DNA of 40,361 nt from Planctomycetota bacterium (lineage in GTDB: Bacteria > Planctomycetota > Phycisphaerae > FEN-1346), in contig JAPLMM010000090.1 of the NCBI GenBank assembly GCA_026387035.1, forward strand, positions 1 to 40,361, read 5' to 3'. The notes under the pieces were generated by a model that saw nothing but the letters and a program-made list of their open reading frames with translations, was not told where the DNA came from and searched no databases. This document shows, piece after piece, positions 1-26,973 of this stretch. The position numbers and the translations under genes are program-made. Within the stretch, counting starts at the first letter, position 1. Every line of letters begins with the position of its first letter.

Positions 1-828
1 GTCGATCTTGCGGATGATGCGGCGGCACAGGTCGGTGTACTCGGTGTATTCCCTGGCGGTGAGCGTCTGCGAGGGGGCGACGACCATCGAGTCGCCCGTG
101 TGGACGCCCATCGGGTCCACGTTCTCCATCGAGGTGATGATGATGACGTTGTCCCGGCAATCGCGCATCACCTCGAACTCGATTTCCTTCCACCCGAGGA
201 CCGACTGCTCGACGAGCACCTGGCCGACGGGACTCGTGGTGAGGGCGTGGGTGAGGGCGGCGGCGAGTTCTTCCTGGTTATAGGCCGTCGCGCCGCCCGC
301 GCCGCCCAGCGTGAACGCCGGACGTAGAATCAGCGGGAACCCGATCCGTTGGCCGATCTCCAGACCCTCTTCGACGCTGGTGGCGATGCCGCTCTCCGGC
401 ACCCGGATGCCGATCTCCTGCATGGCCTTCTTGAAAAGGTCGCGGTCCTCGGCGCGGCTGATGGCTTCGGGGCTGGCGCCCAGGACCTCGACGCCGTACT
501 TCTTGTACACCCCGGCGCGGGCGAGGAAGACGGCGACGTTGAGGCCTGTCTGGCCGCCGAGGGTCGGCAGAACCGCGTCGGGGCGCTCGCGCGCGATGAT
601 TTTTTCAACGACCTCGGCGGTGATGGGCTCAATGTAGGTGCGGTCGGCCATCCGCGGGTCCGTCATGATCGTCGCCGGGTTCGAGTTGATGAGGATGACC
701 CGGTAGCCCTCTTCCTTGAGGGCCTTGCAGGCCTGGGAGCCGGAATAGTCGAACTCGCAGGCCTGGCCGATGATGATCGGGCCGGAGCCGATGATCAGCA
801 CGCTCTTGATGTCGGTGCGCTTGGGCAC
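1..828 (-). CDS. carB: Carbamoyl-phosphate synthase large subunit, N-terminal part (partial)
   Basis: ATP-grasp subunit that makes carbamoyl phosphate from bicarbonate, ATP and ammonia for pyrimidine and arginine synthesis. The 276 codons visible begin [18 protein letters not shown], the standard CarB start, and continue through the first preATP-grasp domain ([28 protein letters not shown]) into the first ATP-grasp domain ([24 protein letters not shown]). The reading frame is open to base 1, so about three quarters of the protein lies beyond the window. The start is GTG at 828, preceded by AGGGAAC four bases upstream. It lies downstream of carA, separated by 105 bp that hold a short-period repeat. 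Family identity is certain; only completeness is unknown. Confidence 0.97.
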
Positions 829-933: not shown

Positions 934-2046
934 TCAGGCCTTGCGCCTGCCTCGTTTCTTCGTACGTGCGGGCGGGCGGCCGCCTTCCGAGAATGCCTTC
1001 AAGAGCGGGCTCGGCGCGCCTATTTCGTCCGGGCACGGGTGGAACTGAAGGCCCGCCGCGTCGAACTTGCGGCTGCGGATTCCCTCGACCGTCCCGTCAT
1101 TCAGATTTTCGTAGGCGACGGCAACGTCTCTCGGCAAGCGCTCGCCATCCACCACGAAACTGTGATGCTGAACCGTGATGAGCGAGGGGCCGCCCGTCAG
1201 GTCCGTGACGGGGTAGTTGACGCCGCGGTGGCCTGTTTTCATGCGCTTCACTTTGCATCCGAGGGCGAGGGCGAGCACCTCGTGCCCCAGGCCGATCCCC
1301 AGCAGCCGAACCTTGCCCAGGAGCCCTGCGACCATCTTGACGGCACGCGTCCGGACGCGCGGGTCGCCCGGACCGCCGGCGACGATGACGGCCTCGGGCT
1401 TCTTGGCCAGCACCTCATCGGCGCAGGCCGTGCAGGCCAGAACGTCTACCGAGCAGTCAAGGGCGGCGAGTTGCACGAGCAGGCTGTTCTTCACGCCCAG
1501 GTTGACGAGGACGATCCGGTGTTTCGTCGGGCCCTTCGGAGGCCGGACGCTTTCCCAGGTCAATCCCTCGACGAGGTCTCCGCCGAAGGGGGAGGGGGTC
1601 TTCTTGAGTTTCCTGGCGATTGCCTTCACGTCAAAGTCGCCGGAGACGATGGCCGCCCCCATCTCGCCGTGGTCCCTCAAGTGAACGGTAACGGCGCGGG
1701 TGTCCACCTCGCGGATGCCGACGACGCCGTGCTCCTTCAGAAAATCTTCCAGGGATCCGGTCGCGCGGAAGTTCGAGAAGGTTCGGCTGTATTCACGGAC
1801 GACGATGCCGCGGACGTGAACGCCGTCGGACTCGTTGTCCTCGTCGTTGACGCCGTAACTGCCGATGATCGGGTACGTGAGGACAGCCAGCGTGCCGGCG
1901 TAGGAGGGGTTCGTGAGGAGTTCCTGGTACCCGACGACGCCGGTGGTGAAAACGGCTTCTCCAAAGGCTTCCCCGGCGGCGCCGAAGGGCTTGCCTTCGA
2001 ACGCCGTGCCGTCCTCGAGAATCAGCGCCGCCTTGTTTCCGCTCAT
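934..2046 (-). CDS. carA: Carbamoyl-phosphate synthase small subunit with degenerate glutaminase site
   Basis: The family normally hydrolyses glutamine and channels ammonia to CarB. The 370-residue protein has the CarA N-terminal domain (LILEDGTAFEGKPFG, FTTGVVGYQE, residues 7-41) and a class I amidotransferase fold (VNLGVKNSLL 181-190, GGPGDP 224-229). The nucleophile elbow, normally GICLGHQ, reads GIGLGHE at 250-256, so the catalytic Cys is Gly252. The triad HPE motif reads H336-P337-C338, so the Glu is also lost. The rest of the fold and the reading frame are intact. The start ATG follows GGAGA; carA lies 45 bp after guaA and 105 bp before carB on the same strand. Inference: a structural or regulatory subunit that no longer uses glutamine, with CarB fed by free ammonia. 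Confidence 0.93.
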   Translation of the reverse strand: MSGNKAALILEDGTAFEGKPFGAAGEAFGEAVFTTGVVGYQELLTNPSYAGTLAVLTYPIIGSYGVNDEDNESDGVHVRGIVVREYSRTFSNFRATGSLEDFLKEHGVVGIREVDTRAVTVHLRDHGEMGAAIVSGDFDVKAIARKLKKTPSPFGGDLVEGLTWESVRPPKGPTKHRIVLVNLGVKNSLLVQLAALDCSVDVLACTACADEVLAKKPEAVIVAGGPGDPRVRTRAVKMVAGLLGKVRLLGIGLGHEVLALALGCKVKRMKTGHRGVNYPVTDLTGGPSLITVQHHSFVVDGERLPRDVAVAYENLNDGTVEGIRSRKFDAAGLQFHPCPDEIGAPSPLLKAFSEGGRPPARTKKRGRRKA

Positions 2047-2091: not shown

Positions 2092-3027
2092 CTAGATGTA
2101 CTCAATCGTGCTGGGCGGCTTCGGGCTCAGATCGTACACGACTTTCGTTGCGGACGGGATCTCCCGGTAGATCCGATTCTGGATTTTCATGAGCACGGGC
2201 CAGGGCAGTTTCGTCGCCGTGGCTGTGATCGCGTTCTCGGAATCCACGCAGCGGACGGCAATGATGTGGCCGAAACGCCGATGGCCGTCCTTCGTCACCC
2301 CCGTCGCCCGGTCCTCCAGGAGCACCCCGAACGCCTGGAACTTCTTGAAGCGCTTCGTCTCTTCCTCAACGATCTTGCAGGCGGTGCGGACGATCGCGAT
2401 GCGCTCGGGGTTCGCCTCGCCGAGGCATCGGCACGCCAAGCCCGGGCCCGGGAACGGCATGCGGGCGTAAAGGCTTCTCGGCAGGCCGAGGGCCCGGCCG
2501 ACCTTCCGCACGTCGGGCTTGTAGAGCGTCTTGAGGGGCTCGATCGTCGTGTAGCCGTAGCGGCCCTTTGCGCTGATGCCGATCTGGTCCAGCACGTTGT
2601 GCTGCGTCTTGACGCCCTTGCGGGTTTCGACGATGTCGGCCGCGATGGTCCCCTGGACGAGGAACTGGGCGCCGGAGGCGCGCACCGCTTTCTTGAAGAC
2701 CTTGTAGAAGGCGTCGCGGAAGGCTTTGCGCTTCCGCTCGGGATCGGTCCGTCCCTTGAGCGCCGCGAAGAACGTTCGCGCCGCGCGGACGATCCGCACG
2801 CGGATGCCGAGGTGCGCGAAAGCCGCGCGGACCTCCTGGGGTTCGTCCTCGCGCATCAGGCCGTCGTCGATGAAGATGACCTTGAGGCGCTTGCCGAGCG
2901 CGCGGTGCGCCAGGATCGTGGCGACGGCGCTGTCGACTCCTCCCGACAGGGCGCTGATGGCCCGGCCCTTGCCGACGGTGCGGCGAATGGCGGCGATCTG
3001 ACGTTGTGCAAATGCCTTGTGGTTCAC
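2092..3027 (-). CDS. guaA: GMP synthase, ATP-pyrophosphatase subunit only (no glutaminase domain)
   Basis: Adenylates XMP and amidates it to GMP. The 311-residue protein begins VNHKAFAQRQ and shows the N-type ATP pyrophosphatase loop SGGVDS (residues 28-33), the GTIAADIVE block, MPFPGPGLACRCLGE, and the C-terminal dimerisation end KPPSTIEYI. It equals the C-terminal two thirds of ordinary bacterial GuaA; no class I amidotransferase domain is fused. The GTG at 3027 is chosen because AGGGGAGA precedes it by four bases. An in-frame ATG 35 codons upstream has no family support. It is probably first gene of guaA-carA-carB. It must receive ammonia directly or from a separate GuaAa-like subunit, which is not in the window. 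Confidence 0.95.
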   Translation of the reverse strand: MNHKAFAQRQIAAIRRTVGKGRAISALSGGVDSAVATILAHRALGKRLKVIFIDDGLMREDEPQEVRAAFAHLGIRVRIVRAARTFFAALKGRTDPERKRKAFRDAFYKVFKKAVRASGAQFLVQGTIAADIVETRKGVKTQHNVLDQIGISAKGRYGYTTIEPLKTLYKPDVRKVGRALGLPRSLYARMPFPGPGLACRCLGEANPERIAIVRTACKIVEEETKRFKKFQAFGVLLEDRATGVTKDGHRRFGHIIAVRCVDSENAITATATKLPWPVLMKIQNRIYREIPSATKVVYDLSPKPPSTIEYI

Positions 3028-3367: not shown

Positions 3368-4039
3368 ATGAGGACAGCAGAGATGAGCCACGCCATGGCA
3401 TTGGCAGCGCCGGCCCACAGCGCCCTGGACTCGAGCGTCCTGGTGCTGAACCGCCTGTTCATGGCGGTGCGGGTGATCCGCGCGCGGCACGCGTTTGTCC
3501 TGTTGTGGAAACAGGTGGCGGAGGTCGTGTCGGTGGAGGATGAATCGTACAATTGCTACGATTTTTCTTCGTGGGCTGAACTCTCGCAATACCGGCGGAA
3601 GTTCCAGCCGGCGCTGCACCAGGAGTGGATCCGGACGGTGCGGTTCGACCTGGCCGTCCCGCGCGTCATCCGCCTGGTGCGCTACGACCGGATTCCCAAG
3701 ACGCGTGTGCGGCTAAACCGTCGGAACCTTTTTGCGCGCGATTCGAGCCGGTGCCAGTACTGCGGCCGGAAGTTCCGCACCTCGGACCTTTCGATCGACC
3801 ACCTCATCCCCCGGAGCCGAGGCGGACACACCGTCTGGAGCAACGTCGTCTGCGCCTGCCTGGAGTGCAACGTGCGCAAGGGCGGGCGGACCCCGGCGGA
3901 GGCGGGCATGAACCTGGTGCGCGAACCGAAGGCGCCGCGCTTCAGCCCGGTCATCACGCTGCACGCCCGGGACCCGAAGTATCGGTCGTGGCAGCAGTTT
4001 TTGGACGCGGCGTACTGGCACGTGGAACTGCGTGATTGA
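3368..4039 (+). CDS. HNH endonuclease family protein
   Basis: A 223-residue protein with an N-terminal region typical of planctomycete HNH proteins (VLVLNRLFMAVRVIRARHAF, about 24-43) and a C-terminal zinc-bound HNH domain. CQYC (129-132) and CLEC (164-167) would bind zinc, DH at 144-145 starts the HNH core (IDHLIPRSRGG), and Asn159 and Asn168 fill the other positions. The core therefore looks catalytically complete. It stands alone with its own promoter and is divergent from guaA. Substrate is unknown; a role in DNA cleavage or repair is family inference only. An internal ATG at 3383 (MSHAMALAAP) is an equally plausible start. Confidence 0.88.
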   Translation: MRTAEMSHAMALAAPAHSALDSSVLVLNRLFMAVRVIRARHAFVLLWKQVAEVVSVEDESYNCYDFSSWAELSQYRRKFQPALHQEWIRTVRFDLAVPRVIRLVRYDRIPKTRVRLNRRNLFARDSSRCQYCGRKFRTSDLSIDHLIPRSRGGHTVWSNVVCACLECNVRKGGRTPAEAGMNLVREPKAPRFSPVITLHARDPKYRSWQQFLDAAYWHVELRD

Positions 4040-4332: not shown

Positions 4333-4361
4333 TTTGCATTTCCGCCGTTCTTGTGTATAAT
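4333..4361 (+). promoter_or_regulatory. Sigma70-type promoter for the PEP-CTERM gene
   Basis: TTTGCA (4333-4338), 17 bases, TATAAT (4356-4361): one of the best promoters in the window. It leaves a leader of about 160 nt before the ATG at 4530. The leader contains a perfect 6-bp hairpin (GGGCTA/TAGCCC, 4410-4428), and its AGGAAAGGA ribosome site is at 4513-4521. I could not match the leader to a known riboswitch. Confidence 0.65.
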
Positions 4362-4529
4362 GTCAACGGCAGGGTTGAGTATCTCTGCCGAGATGCACCC
4401 GGGGAAAGCGGGCTAAGCGATATAGCCCTCCAATGTGGCGGGACTTTGCGCCGTGCGTGGTTTCTGTTCACGCCATCGGCGCGGCATATCGTCCCCCGCT
4501 CCCCCGAAAGACAGGAAAGGACAGTCGCT

Positions 4530-5660
4530 ATGTTTCAGACCACCTTTCGGGCGGTGTTGGGGATCGCGGCGGGCCTCTGGCTGGCGGGCGTGGGCGCCGG
4601 CGCCAGCATCCCCGACGGGAACCTCTTTGAAGGCAGGACTCCGGGCGGTTTCGGGCCGTCCGTCGCCCTAACGGCCGACGGTCAGGAACTCGTTGAAGTG
4701 TACCTGGCGCCGGCCGGTGGCCAGATCTTCAGGGGCTGGGCCGCACGCCCGCTGGATCCGGCGGCTGAGGATTCCGCGTGGATGGCGGCGGGCGCCCCTC
4801 GCACCGTGGTGTTCGAGGCGCCGGCCGAACTGGCCGCTCCCGCCGGCCTGGCGTCGTTCGTGTATCCCGAGGTCACGGGTCTGTCGCATGCGGCGTCGGA
4901 CGAGCGGGCCAATCCCCTCTCGGACGCAGCGGTCCTGGCGCTCGGTCCGGGCGGCATGGGCCGGTACATGAACGGCAAGCCCGACGGCTCCATCGCGAAC
5001 TGGATCCTCGCGAATGAATCCGCCATCAGTTACATCCGGCCGCACGTCAACGTCGAGATGATGCTGGCGCTGGAGATACCCGCTGGCGCGGCGGCCTTCG
5101 AGGGCCCCGGCCTTGAGCCACACGCCTACATGGCCGTGGACCACCGGACGCGCGTGGACTCGGCCGACATCGGGTCCGCAACGGACGCGTTCGGCCGGCG
5201 ACCCGTCGAAACACCCGCCCAGGAATCGCAGACGGCCATGGCCGTCGGGCTGGACCTCGGCATCCTGCCGACGTTCCTCTCGCAGATGGGCATGAACATC
5301 TCGGTCGTGGCCTCGCAAGGACAGGAAACGGGCAACGTGAAGGTGGCCCTGGTGGGGACGGCGGAACTGCCGATCGACTGGCTGCCGCACGAACGCCCGA
5401 TCAACCATCCCACCGGCCTGGCCATTTTTCCGTATGACATCGCGTCGAGCCCCTACGAGTTCGGGTCCGGAGGCAGCGGCAGCGGCACGCCGCCCGGCGG
5501 CGACGGGGGTGGCGGCGGCGGGGGCGGTGGCGGCGGGGGGGGCGGCGGGGGAGGCGGCCCCATTCCCATCGTCCCAGTGGTTCCGGAGCCTGCGTCGCTC
5601 CTGCTTATCGGCCTGGGGGCGATCACCACCTGGGCTGTCCGCCGGCGCCGGCACGGCTAG
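4530..5660 (+). CDS. PEP-CTERM sorted secreted protein
   Basis: A 376-residue exported protein of unknown function. Residues 1-25 form a signal peptide (FRAVLGIAAGLWLAGVGAGA). The C-terminus carries a glycine run followed by VPEPASLLLIGLGAITTW and an RRRR end: a PEP motif, a membrane helix and a basic tail, the signal for the exosortase/archaeosortase-type anchoring system. I recognise no domain in the middle. The start is chosen for the AGGAAAGGA site and the signal peptide; the frame is open further upstream but without a signal. It is monocistronic under a TATAAT promoter. Its TAG stop is formed by the first bases of a TA-flanked repeat element, so the original C-terminus may have differed by a few residues. 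Confidence 0.88.
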   Translation: MFQTTFRAVLGIAAGLWLAGVGAGASIPDGNLFEGRTPGGFGPSVALTADGQELVEVYLAPAGGQIFRGWAARPLDPAAEDSAWMAAGAPRTVVFEAPAELAAPAGLASFVYPEVTGLSHAASDERANPLSDAAVLALGPGGMGRYMNGKPDGSIANWILANESAISYIRPHVNVEMMLALEIPAGAAAFEGPGLEPHAYMAVDHRTRVDSADIGSATDAFGRRPVETPAQESQTAMAVGLDLGILPTFLSQMGMNISVVASQGQETGNVKVALVGTAELPIDWLPHERPINHPTGLAIFPYDIASSPYEFGSGGSGSGTPPGGDGGGGGGGGGGGGGGGGGGPIPIVPVVPEPASLLLIGLGAITTWAVRRRRHG

Positions 5661-23661: not shown

Positions 23662-23705
23662 ACCCCCGTGGCCGCCGCTTGCGCGGCCGCCAAGAGGGGA
23701 CGTTT

Positions 23706-24605
23706 ATGGAAACCGGCCTCGTTTTCAACATCCAGCGGTATTCCATCCAGGACGGTCCCGGGATTCGGACGACCGTGTTCCTGAAAGGGTGCCCCATGGA
23801 CTGCTGGTGGTGCCACAACCCCGAAAGCCAGGACCCCGAGGCCGAGATCGTCGTCATCGAGGGCCGTTGCATGCGCTGCGGCGAGTGCCGGAAGGCCTGT
23901 CCGCAAGAAGGCGCCGGCGCACCGAAGACTCCGGACGGCAATCGGCGATGCGTCCGGTGCGGCGCCTGCGTCACGGCCTGCCCGACGGGCGCGCGGCAGA
24001 TGGTGGGCCGGCCCATGACGGTGGCGGACGTGGTCGCCGAGGTCCTCAAGGACCGCGTGTTTTACGAGGAGTCCGGCGGCGGCGTGACCTTCTCCGGCGG
24101 AGAGCCGCTCCTCCAGCCGGGGTTCCTGAAGGCCGTCCTCGCGGCCTGCCGCAGCGCAGGTCTCCACACGGCCGTGGACACCTGCGGTTTCGCCCCGAAG
24201 GAAGACCTTCTGGCCATCGCGCCGCTGGCGGACCTTTTCCTCTACGACCTCAAGTTCATGGACGAGGCATCGCACGTCCGGTACACCGGCGCGTCGAGCG
24301 CCTGCATCCTGGACAACCTGCGGGCCTTGGGCCGGGTCCACGAGAACATCTGGATCCGCGTACCCATCATTCCGGGCATCAACGACAGCGCCGACCATCT
24401 GGAGGCGTTAGCGCGGTGCGCGTCTTCCCTATCGGGCGTGCGCCAGGTAAACTTGCTTCCGTATCACGAGGCGGGGGCCTACAAGTCCCCGCGCGTGGGC
24501 AAGGCGTATCGGCTTGAGAAGATTGCGCCGCCGTCGCCGGAGCACATGGAGGATGTGGCGGCGAAGTTCCGAGGCCATGGTCTCAACGTCAAGATAGGCG
24601 GGTAG
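23706..24605 (+). CDS. Glycyl radical enzyme activating enzyme (radical SAM)
   Basis: Uses S-adenosylmethionine and a 4Fe-4S cluster to abstract hydrogen from the glycine of its partner enzyme. The 300-residue protein shows the radical SAM triad Cys29-x3-Cys33-x2-Cys36 (KGCPMDCWWCHNPE), then an inserted ferredoxin domain with two clusters (CMRCGECRKACP 55-66 and CVRCGACVTACP 82-93) as in activases of dehydratase-type enzymes, the SAM motif TFSGGEPLLQP, and the conserved DLKFMD and RVPIIPGIND. The start at 23706 follows GAGGGGA. The stop is 4 bp before hypD, so the two are co-transcribed and the partner is certain by position. Oxygen-sensitive. Confidence 0.95.
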   Translation: METGLVFNIQRYSIQDGPGIRTTVFLKGCPMDCWWCHNPESQDPEAEIVVIEGRCMRCGECRKACPQEGAGAPKTPDGNRRCVRCGACVTACPTGARQMVGRPMTVADVVAEVLKDRVFYEESGGGVTFSGGEPLLQPGFLKAVLAACRSAGLHTAVDTCGFAPKEDLLAIAPLADLFLYDLKFMDEASHVRYTGASSACILDNLRALGRVHENIWIRVPIIPGINDSADHLEALARCASSLSGVRQVNLLPYHEAGAYKSPRVGKAYRLEKIAPPSPEHMEDVAAKFRGHGLNVKIGG

Positions 24606-24609
24606 CGTC

Positions 24610-26973
24610 ATGACAGACCGGACAGCCAGGCTGCGGCAGGCGAGCCTCGACGCGAAGCCCTGCATCGCCGAGGAGCGAGCGGTCCTCGTGACCGGGTTCT
24701 ATCAGGCCAACGAGGGCAGGTTCTCCGCGCCGGTCATGCGGGCGCAGTGCTTCCATCACCTGTGCAGGCACAAAACGATCTACCTGGGCGAGGATGAACT
24801 CATCGTTGGCGAACGCGGGCCGCAGCCCAAGGCCGTGCCGACGTACCCGGAACTGACCTGCCACAGCCTCGAGGACCTCAGGATCCTCAACTCGCGCCCC
24901 AAGACCAGTTATGCCGTCTCCGACGAGTGCGTGAAGGTCTACCAGAAAACCATCATCCCCTACTGGCGCGGCCGCAGCATGCGGGACCGGCTCTTCCAGG
25001 CGATGTCGGAGGAGTGGCGGGCCGCCTACGACGCGGGCATCTTCACGGAGTTCATGGAACAGCGGGCCCCCGGCCACACGGTCCTCGACGACAAAATCTA
25101 CCGCAAGGGGATGCTGGACTTCCAGCGTGACATCGCCGGCGCGATTGCCGCGATCGACTTTCTCGGCGATCCTGAGGCCTGGGCGAAGCGCGAGCAGTTG
25201 CTGGCGATGAACATCGCCTGCGATGCCGTCCTCCTCTTCGCCCGGCGCCATGCGGCGCTCGCCCGCGAGCAGGCCGCTCGCGAGTCCAACCCGGTGCGAA
25301 AGGCGGAACTCGAAAAGGTCGCCGACGTGTGCACGCACGTCCCGGCCCACGCGCCTCGCAATTTCCACGAGGCCCTGCAGTACTACTGGTTCTGCCACCT
25401 GGCGGTCATCACGGAACTGAACGGCTGGGACTCGTTCAGTCCCGGTCACCTCGACCAGCACCTCCTGCCCTTCTACCGCAAGGGCCTGGAGGACGGGACG
25501 CTCACGCCCGAGAGGGCGCGGGAACTCCTGGAGGCGTTCTTCGTCAAGTTCAACAACCATCCTGCCCCGCCCAAGGTGGGCGTGACGGCGGCCGAGAGCG
25601 GCACGTACACGGACTTCGCCAACATCAACATCGGCGGGCTCCTGGCGGACGGCTCGGACGGCTCCAGCGAGATCTCCCACCTCCTGCTGGACATCGTCGA
25701 CGAGATGCACCTCGTGCAGCCCAGCAGCAACCTGCAACTCGCGCGCAAAACCCCCGACGCCCTCCTCCACCGCGCCCTGTGCGTCATCCGGAAGGGCTAC
25801 GGCTTCCCGTCGATCTTCAACACCGACGCCGTCATCAAGGAGCAGTTGCGGCAGGGCAAGACTCTGGAGGACGCCCGGGCCGGCGGGTGCAGCGGATGCG
25901 TGGAAACCGGCGCCTTCGGCAAGGAGGCGTACATCCTCACAGGGTACTTCAACCTCGTGAAGATCCTGGAACTCGCGCTTCACGACGGGCTCGACCCGCG
26001 CACTGGAAAGCCGTTGGGCCTTCGGACGGGGGCGCCGGGGTCGTTCGCCTCGTTCGACGCCCTCTTCGCCGCGTTCCGCAAGCAACTCCACCACTTCATC
26101 GAGGTCAAGATCCGGGGCAACCAGGTCATCGAACAGATGTATGCCACGTGGATGCCGGCGCCCTTCCTTTCAGTCATCACCGATGACTGCATCCGCAAGG
26201 GCAAGGACTACAACGCCGGCGGCGCGCGGTACAACAACACCTATATCCAGTTCGTGGGGATTGGCAGCCTGACGGACTGCCTGGCGGCCGTCAAGCAGAT
26301 GGTCTTCGATGACAAGGCCATGCCGCTCGGCGATCTCGTGAAGGCGCTCGATGCGAACTTCGAGGGCAATGAGATCCTCCGCCAGCGCCTCGTCAACCGC
26401 ACCCACAAGTACGGCAACGACGACGATTACGCGGACGACCTTGCGGTCCAGGCCTTCGAGAGCCTCTTCGAGGAGGTCGACGGGCGGCCCAACACCAAGG
26501 GCGGCCGGTACCGCGTCGAAATGCTCCCGACCACGAGCCACGTCTACTTCGGTTCCGTCACGGGCGCGATGCCGGACGGCCGCAAGGCGGGGCTCCCGCT
26601 GTCGGAGGGGATCTCGCCCGTTCAGGGCGCGGACCGGCACGGCCCCACGGCCGTTTTCAAGTCGGCGGCCAAGATGGATCACATCAAGACAGGCGGGGCG
26701 CTCTTGAACATGAAGTTCACGCCGGACCTCCTGGCCGACGAGGACAGAATCGTGAAACTCGGGCACATGGTCCGGGCCTACTTCAGGATGAACGGCCACC
26801 ACGTCCAGTTCAACGTGGTGCGGGCCGAGACGCTCCGCAAGGCCCAGGCGGAGCCGGAGGCCTACCGGGACCTCATCATCCGCGTGGCGGGTTACAGCGA
26901 CTACTTCTGCGACCTGGCGCGGGAACTCCAGGAGGAGATCATTTCGCGGACGGAGCACGGGGCGATGGCGTAG
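24610..26973 (+). CDS. hypD: Trans-4-hydroxy-L-proline dehydratase (HypD-type glycyl radical enzyme)
   Basis: Dehydrates trans-4-hydroxy-L-proline to 1-pyrroline-5-carboxylate in anaerobes. The 787-residue protein has the PFL-like barrel, the thiyl cysteine Cys430 in GGCSGCVETG and the C-terminal radical motif RVAGYSD with Gly761. From memory, C. difficile HypD uses F152, H160, D278, S334, D339, C434, E436, T645 and G765. Here Phe148, His156, Asp274, Ser330, Asp335, Cys430, Glu432, Thr641 and Gly761 occupy the same contexts, all at a constant offset of -4. This separates it from pyruvate formate-lyase (adjacent Cys pair), choline lyase and glycerol dehydratase. Expected length is about 789. 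The pyrroline-5-carboxylate reductase that often accompanies it is not in the window. It converges with the peptide transporter operon. Confidence 0.88.
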   Translation: MTDRTARLRQASLDAKPCIAEERAVLVTGFYQANEGRFSAPVMRAQCFHHLCRHKTIYLGEDELIVGERGPQPKAVPTYPELTCHSLEDLRILNSRPKTSYAVSDECVKVYQKTIIPYWRGRSMRDRLFQAMSEEWRAAYDAGIFTEFMEQRAPGHTVLDDKIYRKGMLDFQRDIAGAIAAIDFLGDPEAWAKREQLLAMNIACDAVLLFARRHAALAREQAARESNPVRKAELEKVADVCTHVPAHAPRNFHEALQYYWFCHLAVITELNGWDSFSPGHLDQHLLPFYRKGLEDGTLTPERARELLEAFFVKFNNHPAPPKVGVTAAESGTYTDFANINIGGLLADGSDGSSEISHLLLDIVDEMHLVQPSSNLQLARKTPDALLHRALCVIRKGYGFPSIFNTDAVIKEQLRQGKTLEDARAGGCSGCVETGAFGKEAYILTGYFNLVKILELALHDGLDPRTGKPLGLRTGAPGSFASFDALFAAFRKQLHHFIEVKIRGNQVIEQMYATWMPAPFLSVITDDCIRKGKDYNAGGARYNNTYIQFVGIGSLTDCLAAVKQMVFDDKAMPLGDLVKALDANFEGNEILRQRLVNRTHKYGNDDDYADDLAVQAFESLFEEVDGRPNTKGGRYRVEMLPTTSHVYFGSVTGAMPDGRKAGLPLSEGISPVQGADRHGPTAVFKSAAKMDHIKTGGALLNMKFTPDLLADEDRIVKLGHMVRAYFRMNGHHVQFNVVRAETLRKAQAEPEAYRDLIIRVAGYSDYFCDLARELQEEIISRTEHGAMA

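Follow-up and report, generated by a model that had tools for sequence, protein, structure and literature searches.

A planctomycete genome encodes a GMP synthase-type protein without a glutaminase domain (GuaA2) next to a carbamoyl-phosphate synthase (CPS) small subunit with a dead glutaminase (dead CarA), and the two genes form one operon-like run with carB. According to the textbooks, nitrogen enters GMP, phosphoribosylamine (PRA), imidazole-glycerol phosphate (IGP) and carbamoyl phosphate via glutamine. Judged from the sequences, guaA2-carA-carB is fairly probably one operon of a dispersed kit of ammonia-dependent isozymes.

The guaA2-carA-carB operon

The window analyzed here is the whole stretch of 40,361 nucleotides. 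It contains the following features of the operon:

1–825, minus strand: 5' part of carB (275 aa); the rest of the gene is on contig C12 (L012), giving ~1100 aa in all
934–2046, minus strand: carA, CPS small subunit with a dead glutaminase (Cys to Gly, triad Glu lost)
2092–3027, minus strand: guaA2, stand-alone GMP-synthase-type ATP-pyrophosphatase with dimerisation domain and without glutaminase domain

The guaA2 ORF has a GTG start and encodes 311 aa, which match TIGR00884 end to end (residues 6–310; 322 bits, slightly below the cut-off of 338.75) and PF00958, the dimerisation domain, with 86 bits. No GATase domain was found in the 311 aa by profile match, and the protein is thus the ATP-pyrophosphatase part alone, as an earlier note on this DNA had claimed. 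Among PDB entries, the archaeal ATPPase subunits 2DPL and 6JP9 match it most closely in sequence. The adjacent CarA (TIGR01368, 339 bits), which the same note had described as having lost its glutaminase chemistry, reads GIGLGHE vs. GICLGHQ in an alignment with E. coli CarA (1c30). The nucleophile Cys is replaced by Gly, and the Glu of HPE, i.e. the triad Glu, is gone. Both losses were found in 4/4 members of the window's family, and the triad is intact in 20/20 canonical CarA. CarB positions 1–275, encoded in the window, match TIGR01369 with 451 bits. The ORF on contig C12 opens with the last CarB residues of the window (identical overlap) and scores 1072 bits alone; the full-length orthologue in the related genome G005 scores 1450 bits, and the two-half CarB is intact. 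A search for riboswitches or other known RNAs near the operon, in the window and 20 loci, returned only tRNAs.

Canonical copies in the same genome

The source genome is a planctomycete MAG of 2.5 Mb in 317 contigs (95% complete, 2.76% contamination). Its contig C161 carries purF-carA-carB with an intact CarA triad, and on contig C271 a more canonical GuaA is represented by its C-terminal 107 aa, the gene being cut by the contig edge. This fragment probably belongs to a fused, glutaminase-bearing GuaA, because three related genomes (G001, G002 and G004) carry the corresponding operon with carA, the N-terminal half of carB, and a guaA fused with its glutaminase. The order purF-carA-carB1-guaA also occurs among the canonical copies of the window's family. 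On the contigs G001:C152, G002:C1 and G004:C110 (L078, L072 and L067 with their neighbours) the canonical CarB is split: carA and guaA flank an N-terminal half of ~550 aa, and the C-terminal half is encoded on another contig.

The loss seen in the operon was not encountered in three of the other amidotransferases to which the earlier note had pointed as a check: TrpG, HisH and PyrG of the window genome, like the canonical CarA, keep the nucleophile Cys, which rules out a general loss of glutaminases. Together with the canonical GuaA fragment, these intact enzymes show that glutamine hydrolysis has not been given up. Hence, guaA2 and the dead carA are second copies, and the organism has not abandoned glutamine.

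GuaA2 forms a distinct family

A scan of genome contigs yielded at least 562 confirmed GuaA2 relatives, of which 80 were kept as alignment rows. Among the matches listed, GuaA2 occurs in Planctomycetota, Aminicenantes, Verrucomicrobiota, Lentisphaerota, Kiritimatiellota, Thermodesulfobacteriota, Sumerlaeota, Armatimonadota and some archaea. Nearly all of 195 sampled genomes of the phylum Planctomycetota possess a single canonical GuaA, and GuaA2 is therefore sporadic there. Of 48 GuaA2 bearers, 40 also encode a fused canonical GuaA; no canonical GuaA was detected in G005 and G068 (91–92% complete). A stand-alone GuaAa, the search for which had been proposed as a check, was detected neither in the window genome nor in any of the 48 GuaA2-bearing genomes. 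In a tree of 61 rows, GuaA2 formed one clade (support 100/100, branch length 0.79) apart from the canonical GuaA and from two archaeal GuaAb.

The catalytic Asp and Glu and the lid Lys are invariant in 80/80 rows (80 of at least 562 relatives), and so are the XMP-phosphate ligands Lys, Glu and Arg (Mj Lys302, Glu308 and Arg249). The roles of these ligands and of the catalytic Asp and Glu have been described (PMC10526850, PMC9312489). On its own, the ATPPase subunit is able to use ammonia supplied from outside (PMC10526850). Two motifs deviate in GuaA2. The stretch PEXKRKIIGXXF lacks the IIG, and the lid motif IK(T/S)HHN, reported as conserved across GMP synthases (PMC9312489), reads QHN with the first lid His replaced by Gln in 80/80 rows (again of at least 562). 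In Plasmodium GMPS, the exchange H388A greatly impaired GMP formation with both nitrogen donors, NH4Cl included (PMC10526850). Because of this impairment and the replaced lid His, the substrate of GuaA2 could differ from XMP, which is the main doubt concerning its interpretation as a GMP synthase.

In Aminicenantes, GuaA2 mostly occurs without PurF2, and two genomes tested also lacked HisF, indicating that the second set is not obligatory. PurF-like matches near guaA2 in two Aminicenantes loci (L122 and L124) turned out to be ordinary GlmS with Cys.

The second set in related genomes

Three genomes of the same family (G003, G004 and G005) keep the order guaA2-carA-carB, with the dead carA, at 61–86% identity; their GuaA2 orthologues are 74–78% identical. 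A member of another family (G017) has guaA2-carB-hisF with no carA between, and in G007 hisF comes after guaA2. The canonical and the second set are both present in G004, G007 and G017. In G005 (92% complete) the second set was found, and canonical CarA, CarB, GuaA and HisF were not; this suggests that the second set can replace the canonical one, with genome incompleteness as an alternative cause. Since the genomes are mostly MAGs, such absences are weak evidence. Among the relatives of the window, GuaA2 co-occurs with PurF2 (6/6 vs. 4/25, p = 2.9e-4, a value that ignores shared ancestry). No plasmid-borne close relatives were found at ≥60% identity.

Clustering of the ORFs around guaA2 and purF2 in ~110 loci identified HisF (16 loci) and CarB (15 loci) as the commonest neighbours, and no glutaminase recurred near either gene. 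AsnA, the ammonia-only asparagine enzyme, was identified by TIGR00669 directly beside guaA2 in three loci (L128, L130 and L151) and nearby in a fourth (L173). In the CarB tree, the CarB of the window's family fell on the canonical side, and a second, separate clade comprised sequences located beside guaA2 or purF2 in other Planctomycetota and one Desulfobacteraceae genome. The fetched stretches around this separate-clade CarB contained no CarA match. As CarB falls into two groups, a CPS without glutamine hydrolysis has become a neighbour of guaA2 on at least two occasions. Canonical guaA, carA and carB also cluster in this family, so linkage in a nucleotide operon explains part of the adjacency.

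PurF2 and HisF2

PurF2 forms one clade in the PurF tree (100/100). The N-terminal Cys nucleophile is absent from 30/30 PurF2, which have Gly or Ser instead, and the PRPP-binding motif DSIVRGT is kept. When the N-terminal Cys of E. coli PurF was replaced, glutamine use was abolished and ammonia use kept, and for the Cys-less PurF' of Crenarchaeota, otherwise left unexplained, ammonia dependence has been proposed (PMC3261824). PurF2 adjoins HisF2 in five members of the window's family and carB both in G007 and in a Desulfobacteraceae locus (L269). Its neighbour in L132, L145 and L166 is guaA2, and in G240 and G247 it lies inside purF-purM. A Cys at alignment column 13 is invariant in nine aligned PurF2 and also present in nearly all others (not in L237). 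On a Nanoarchaeota contig (L132, 4609–6147, minus strand), a divergent Cys-bearing PurF, PurF2, purD and guaA2 occur close together.

In HisF2, the catalytic Asp11 and Asp130 are kept in 18/18 sequences. Glu167, which we take to be part of the same HisF ammonium gate as Lys99, is lost in 18/18 HisF2 and kept in 9/9 canonical HisF, and residues on the HisH side are lost as well. The inclusion of Lys99 in the gate has been reported (PMC10115891). An intact HisH was found in 0/5 genomes with HisF2 only vs. 17/18 genomes with canonical HisF (Fisher p = 1.8e-4, shared ancestry ignored). HisF2 scores higher on TIGR00735 than on the WbuZ or AglZ/HisF2 models and stays below the cut-offs of the latter. 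A 183-aa frame in G005:C47 (L206), a genome that shows only HisF2, has a HisH-like start with Cys, diverges after the nucleophile motif and is a truncated hisH.

A putative route from glutamine to free ammonia

In the second set, the glutaminase domain is absent, a catalytic residue is lost, or the partner is not encoded beside the synthase gene; synthase-site residues are kept, the gene order is conserved, and the genes co-occur. From this pattern we infer active enzymes with NH3 as their donor, and a role of the set under conditions rich in ammonia or poor in glutamine. With free ammonia replacing glutamine, the isozymes would produce GMP, carbamoyl phosphate, imidazole-glycerol phosphate and phosphoribosylamine. 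GuaA2, as the synthase half of GMP synthase, would work without a glutaminase partner, and CarB would use ammonia to form carbamoyl phosphate, the dead CarA presumably being retained for a structural or regulatory role. HisF2 and PurF2, encoded elsewhere in the genome, would extend the use of ammonia to histidine and purine synthesis.

The adjacency of two amidation enzymes without a working glutaminase, which the earlier note had called a striking coincidence, is not a coincidence, as the pattern extends to HisF2, PurF2 and, elsewhere, AsnA. No pathway step common to purine, guanine, carbamoyl-phosphate, histidine and asparagine synthesis explains the set; what these syntheses have in common is amide or ammonia nitrogen. 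The members serve different pathways, and since AsnA is defined by its use of ammonia, the use of ammonia for glutamine is the simplest common factor. The suspected role of ammonia is thus the best lead offered by the earlier note, and the ammonia-rich lifestyle that it envisaged is compatible with the data. On the broader proposition that GuaA2, PurF2, HisF2, CarB with a dead or no CarA, and AsnA constitute a coordinated, horizontally spread kit, by which many microbes could change over from glutamine to free ammonia in the synthesis of purines, pyrimidines/arginine, histidine and asparagine, we are evenly divided.

The alternative that touches the central enzyme is a change of substrate: GuaA2 would no longer be a GMP synthase, but aminate another XMP-like nucleotide with ammonia, and its neighbours would feed an unknown pathway. 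The long branch of the clade, the uniform exchange of the lid His and the lost IIG fit this explanation, as does the fused GuaA of the 40/48 bearers, which implies that GMP synthesis is already covered. However, the catalytic residues and phosphate ligands are kept in all 80 rows, PurF2 is located in ordinary purine operons, AsnA is an ordinary asparagine enzyme, and the lack of a detected canonical GuaA in the nearly complete G005 and G068 also speaks against a different substrate, which we regard as unlikely. Ordinary duplication within a nucleotide-biosynthesis operon, followed by decay of the spare copies, finds support in the canonical order purF-carA-carB1-guaA of the same family and in the CarB tree, where the window-family CarB groups with the canonical side. 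Yet the genes are full-length, uninterrupted and 60–86% identical across genera; identical residues are lost in each case, the clades of GuaA2 and PurF2 are old and span many phyla, and neither HisF2 nor AsnA belongs to a nucleotide operon, all of which renders decay improbable.

A separate glutaminase that supplies ammonia to all members, the second idea of the earlier note, would have a parallel in the known sharing of glutaminases elsewhere, such as PabA/TrpG. This idea did not hold up in the neighbourhoods, where no glutaminase recurs over the ~110 loci; the gate and HisH-side residues are lost in HisF2, none of the 48 genomes has GuaAa, and we consider a shared glutaminase very improbable. 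A binning artefact, in which either the contig of the window or those with the canonical genes stem from another organism, is conceivable for a MAG of 317 contigs with 2.76% contamination, but G004, G007 and G017 also hold both sets and separate assemblies repeat the operon order, leaving such an artefact barely credible.

If the preferred reading of an ammonia-dependent kit is true, the kit would add a layer of nitrogen metabolism beside the canonical glutamine-dependent enzymes. A recurring bypass of glutamine would spare the ATP of glutamine synthesis when ammonia is plentiful, account for the PurF' duplicates that were reported in 2011 without an explanation, and provide four classic ammonia-tunnelling enzymes in a natural glutaminase-free form.

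Comparison with known systems

In ammonia-dependent CPS-I, the triad change is Cys to Ser. The CPS of the window differs by its change from Cys to Gly, its bacterial origin and its two genes, but resembles CPS-I (5dot/6uel) in a small-subunit glutaminase without the Cys nucleophile and a retained synthetase part. GuaA2 is similar to GuaAb of the archaeal two-subunit GMP synthases (Pyrococcus 2DPL, Methanocaldococcus 6JP9) in being a stand-alone ATPPase subunit of ~310 aa. In contrast to GuaAb, it lacks a GuaAa partner, has QHN for the universal HHN lid, and forms a separate clade, most bearers of which also possess a fused GuaA. PurF2 is, like the crenarchaeal PurF' (PMC3261824), a PurF paralogue without the N-terminal Cys that is located close to purF and other purine genes; unlike PurF', it is, in the genomes covered here, mainly bacterial and found beside guaA2, carB and hisF2. 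AsnA and the NH3-dependent NadE (PMC3376133) are likewise ammonia-using counterparts of glutamine-dependent enzymes and often coexist with them, but are single enzymes and not a multi-pathway set. Searches of the open-access literature for an ammonia-dependent GMP synthase or a glutamine-free enzyme set retrieved single-enzyme precedents only (AsnA, NadE, CPS-I and the archaeal PurF'), and a multi-pathway set is not described there. Second HisF-like proteins also occur as WbuZ and HisF2 of acetamidino-sugar pathways, where they work with a PP-loop enzyme; the HisF2 studied here is nearer to TIGR00735 than to the WbuZ or AglZ/HisF2 models.

Other genes in the window

Divergent from guaA2, an HNH endonuclease-domain protein is encoded at 3368–4039 (plus strand), which in relatives is not kept beside guaA2. 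The product of the plus-strand ORF at 4353–5660 contains a stretch rich in glycine and carries a PEP-CTERM sorting signal (PF07589) at its C-terminus. Farther downstream, at 23679–26973 (plus strand), the gene of a radical SAM activase precedes that of a pyruvate-formate-lyase-like glycyl radical enzyme (PF02901, PF01228), a pair that points to anaerobic metabolism.
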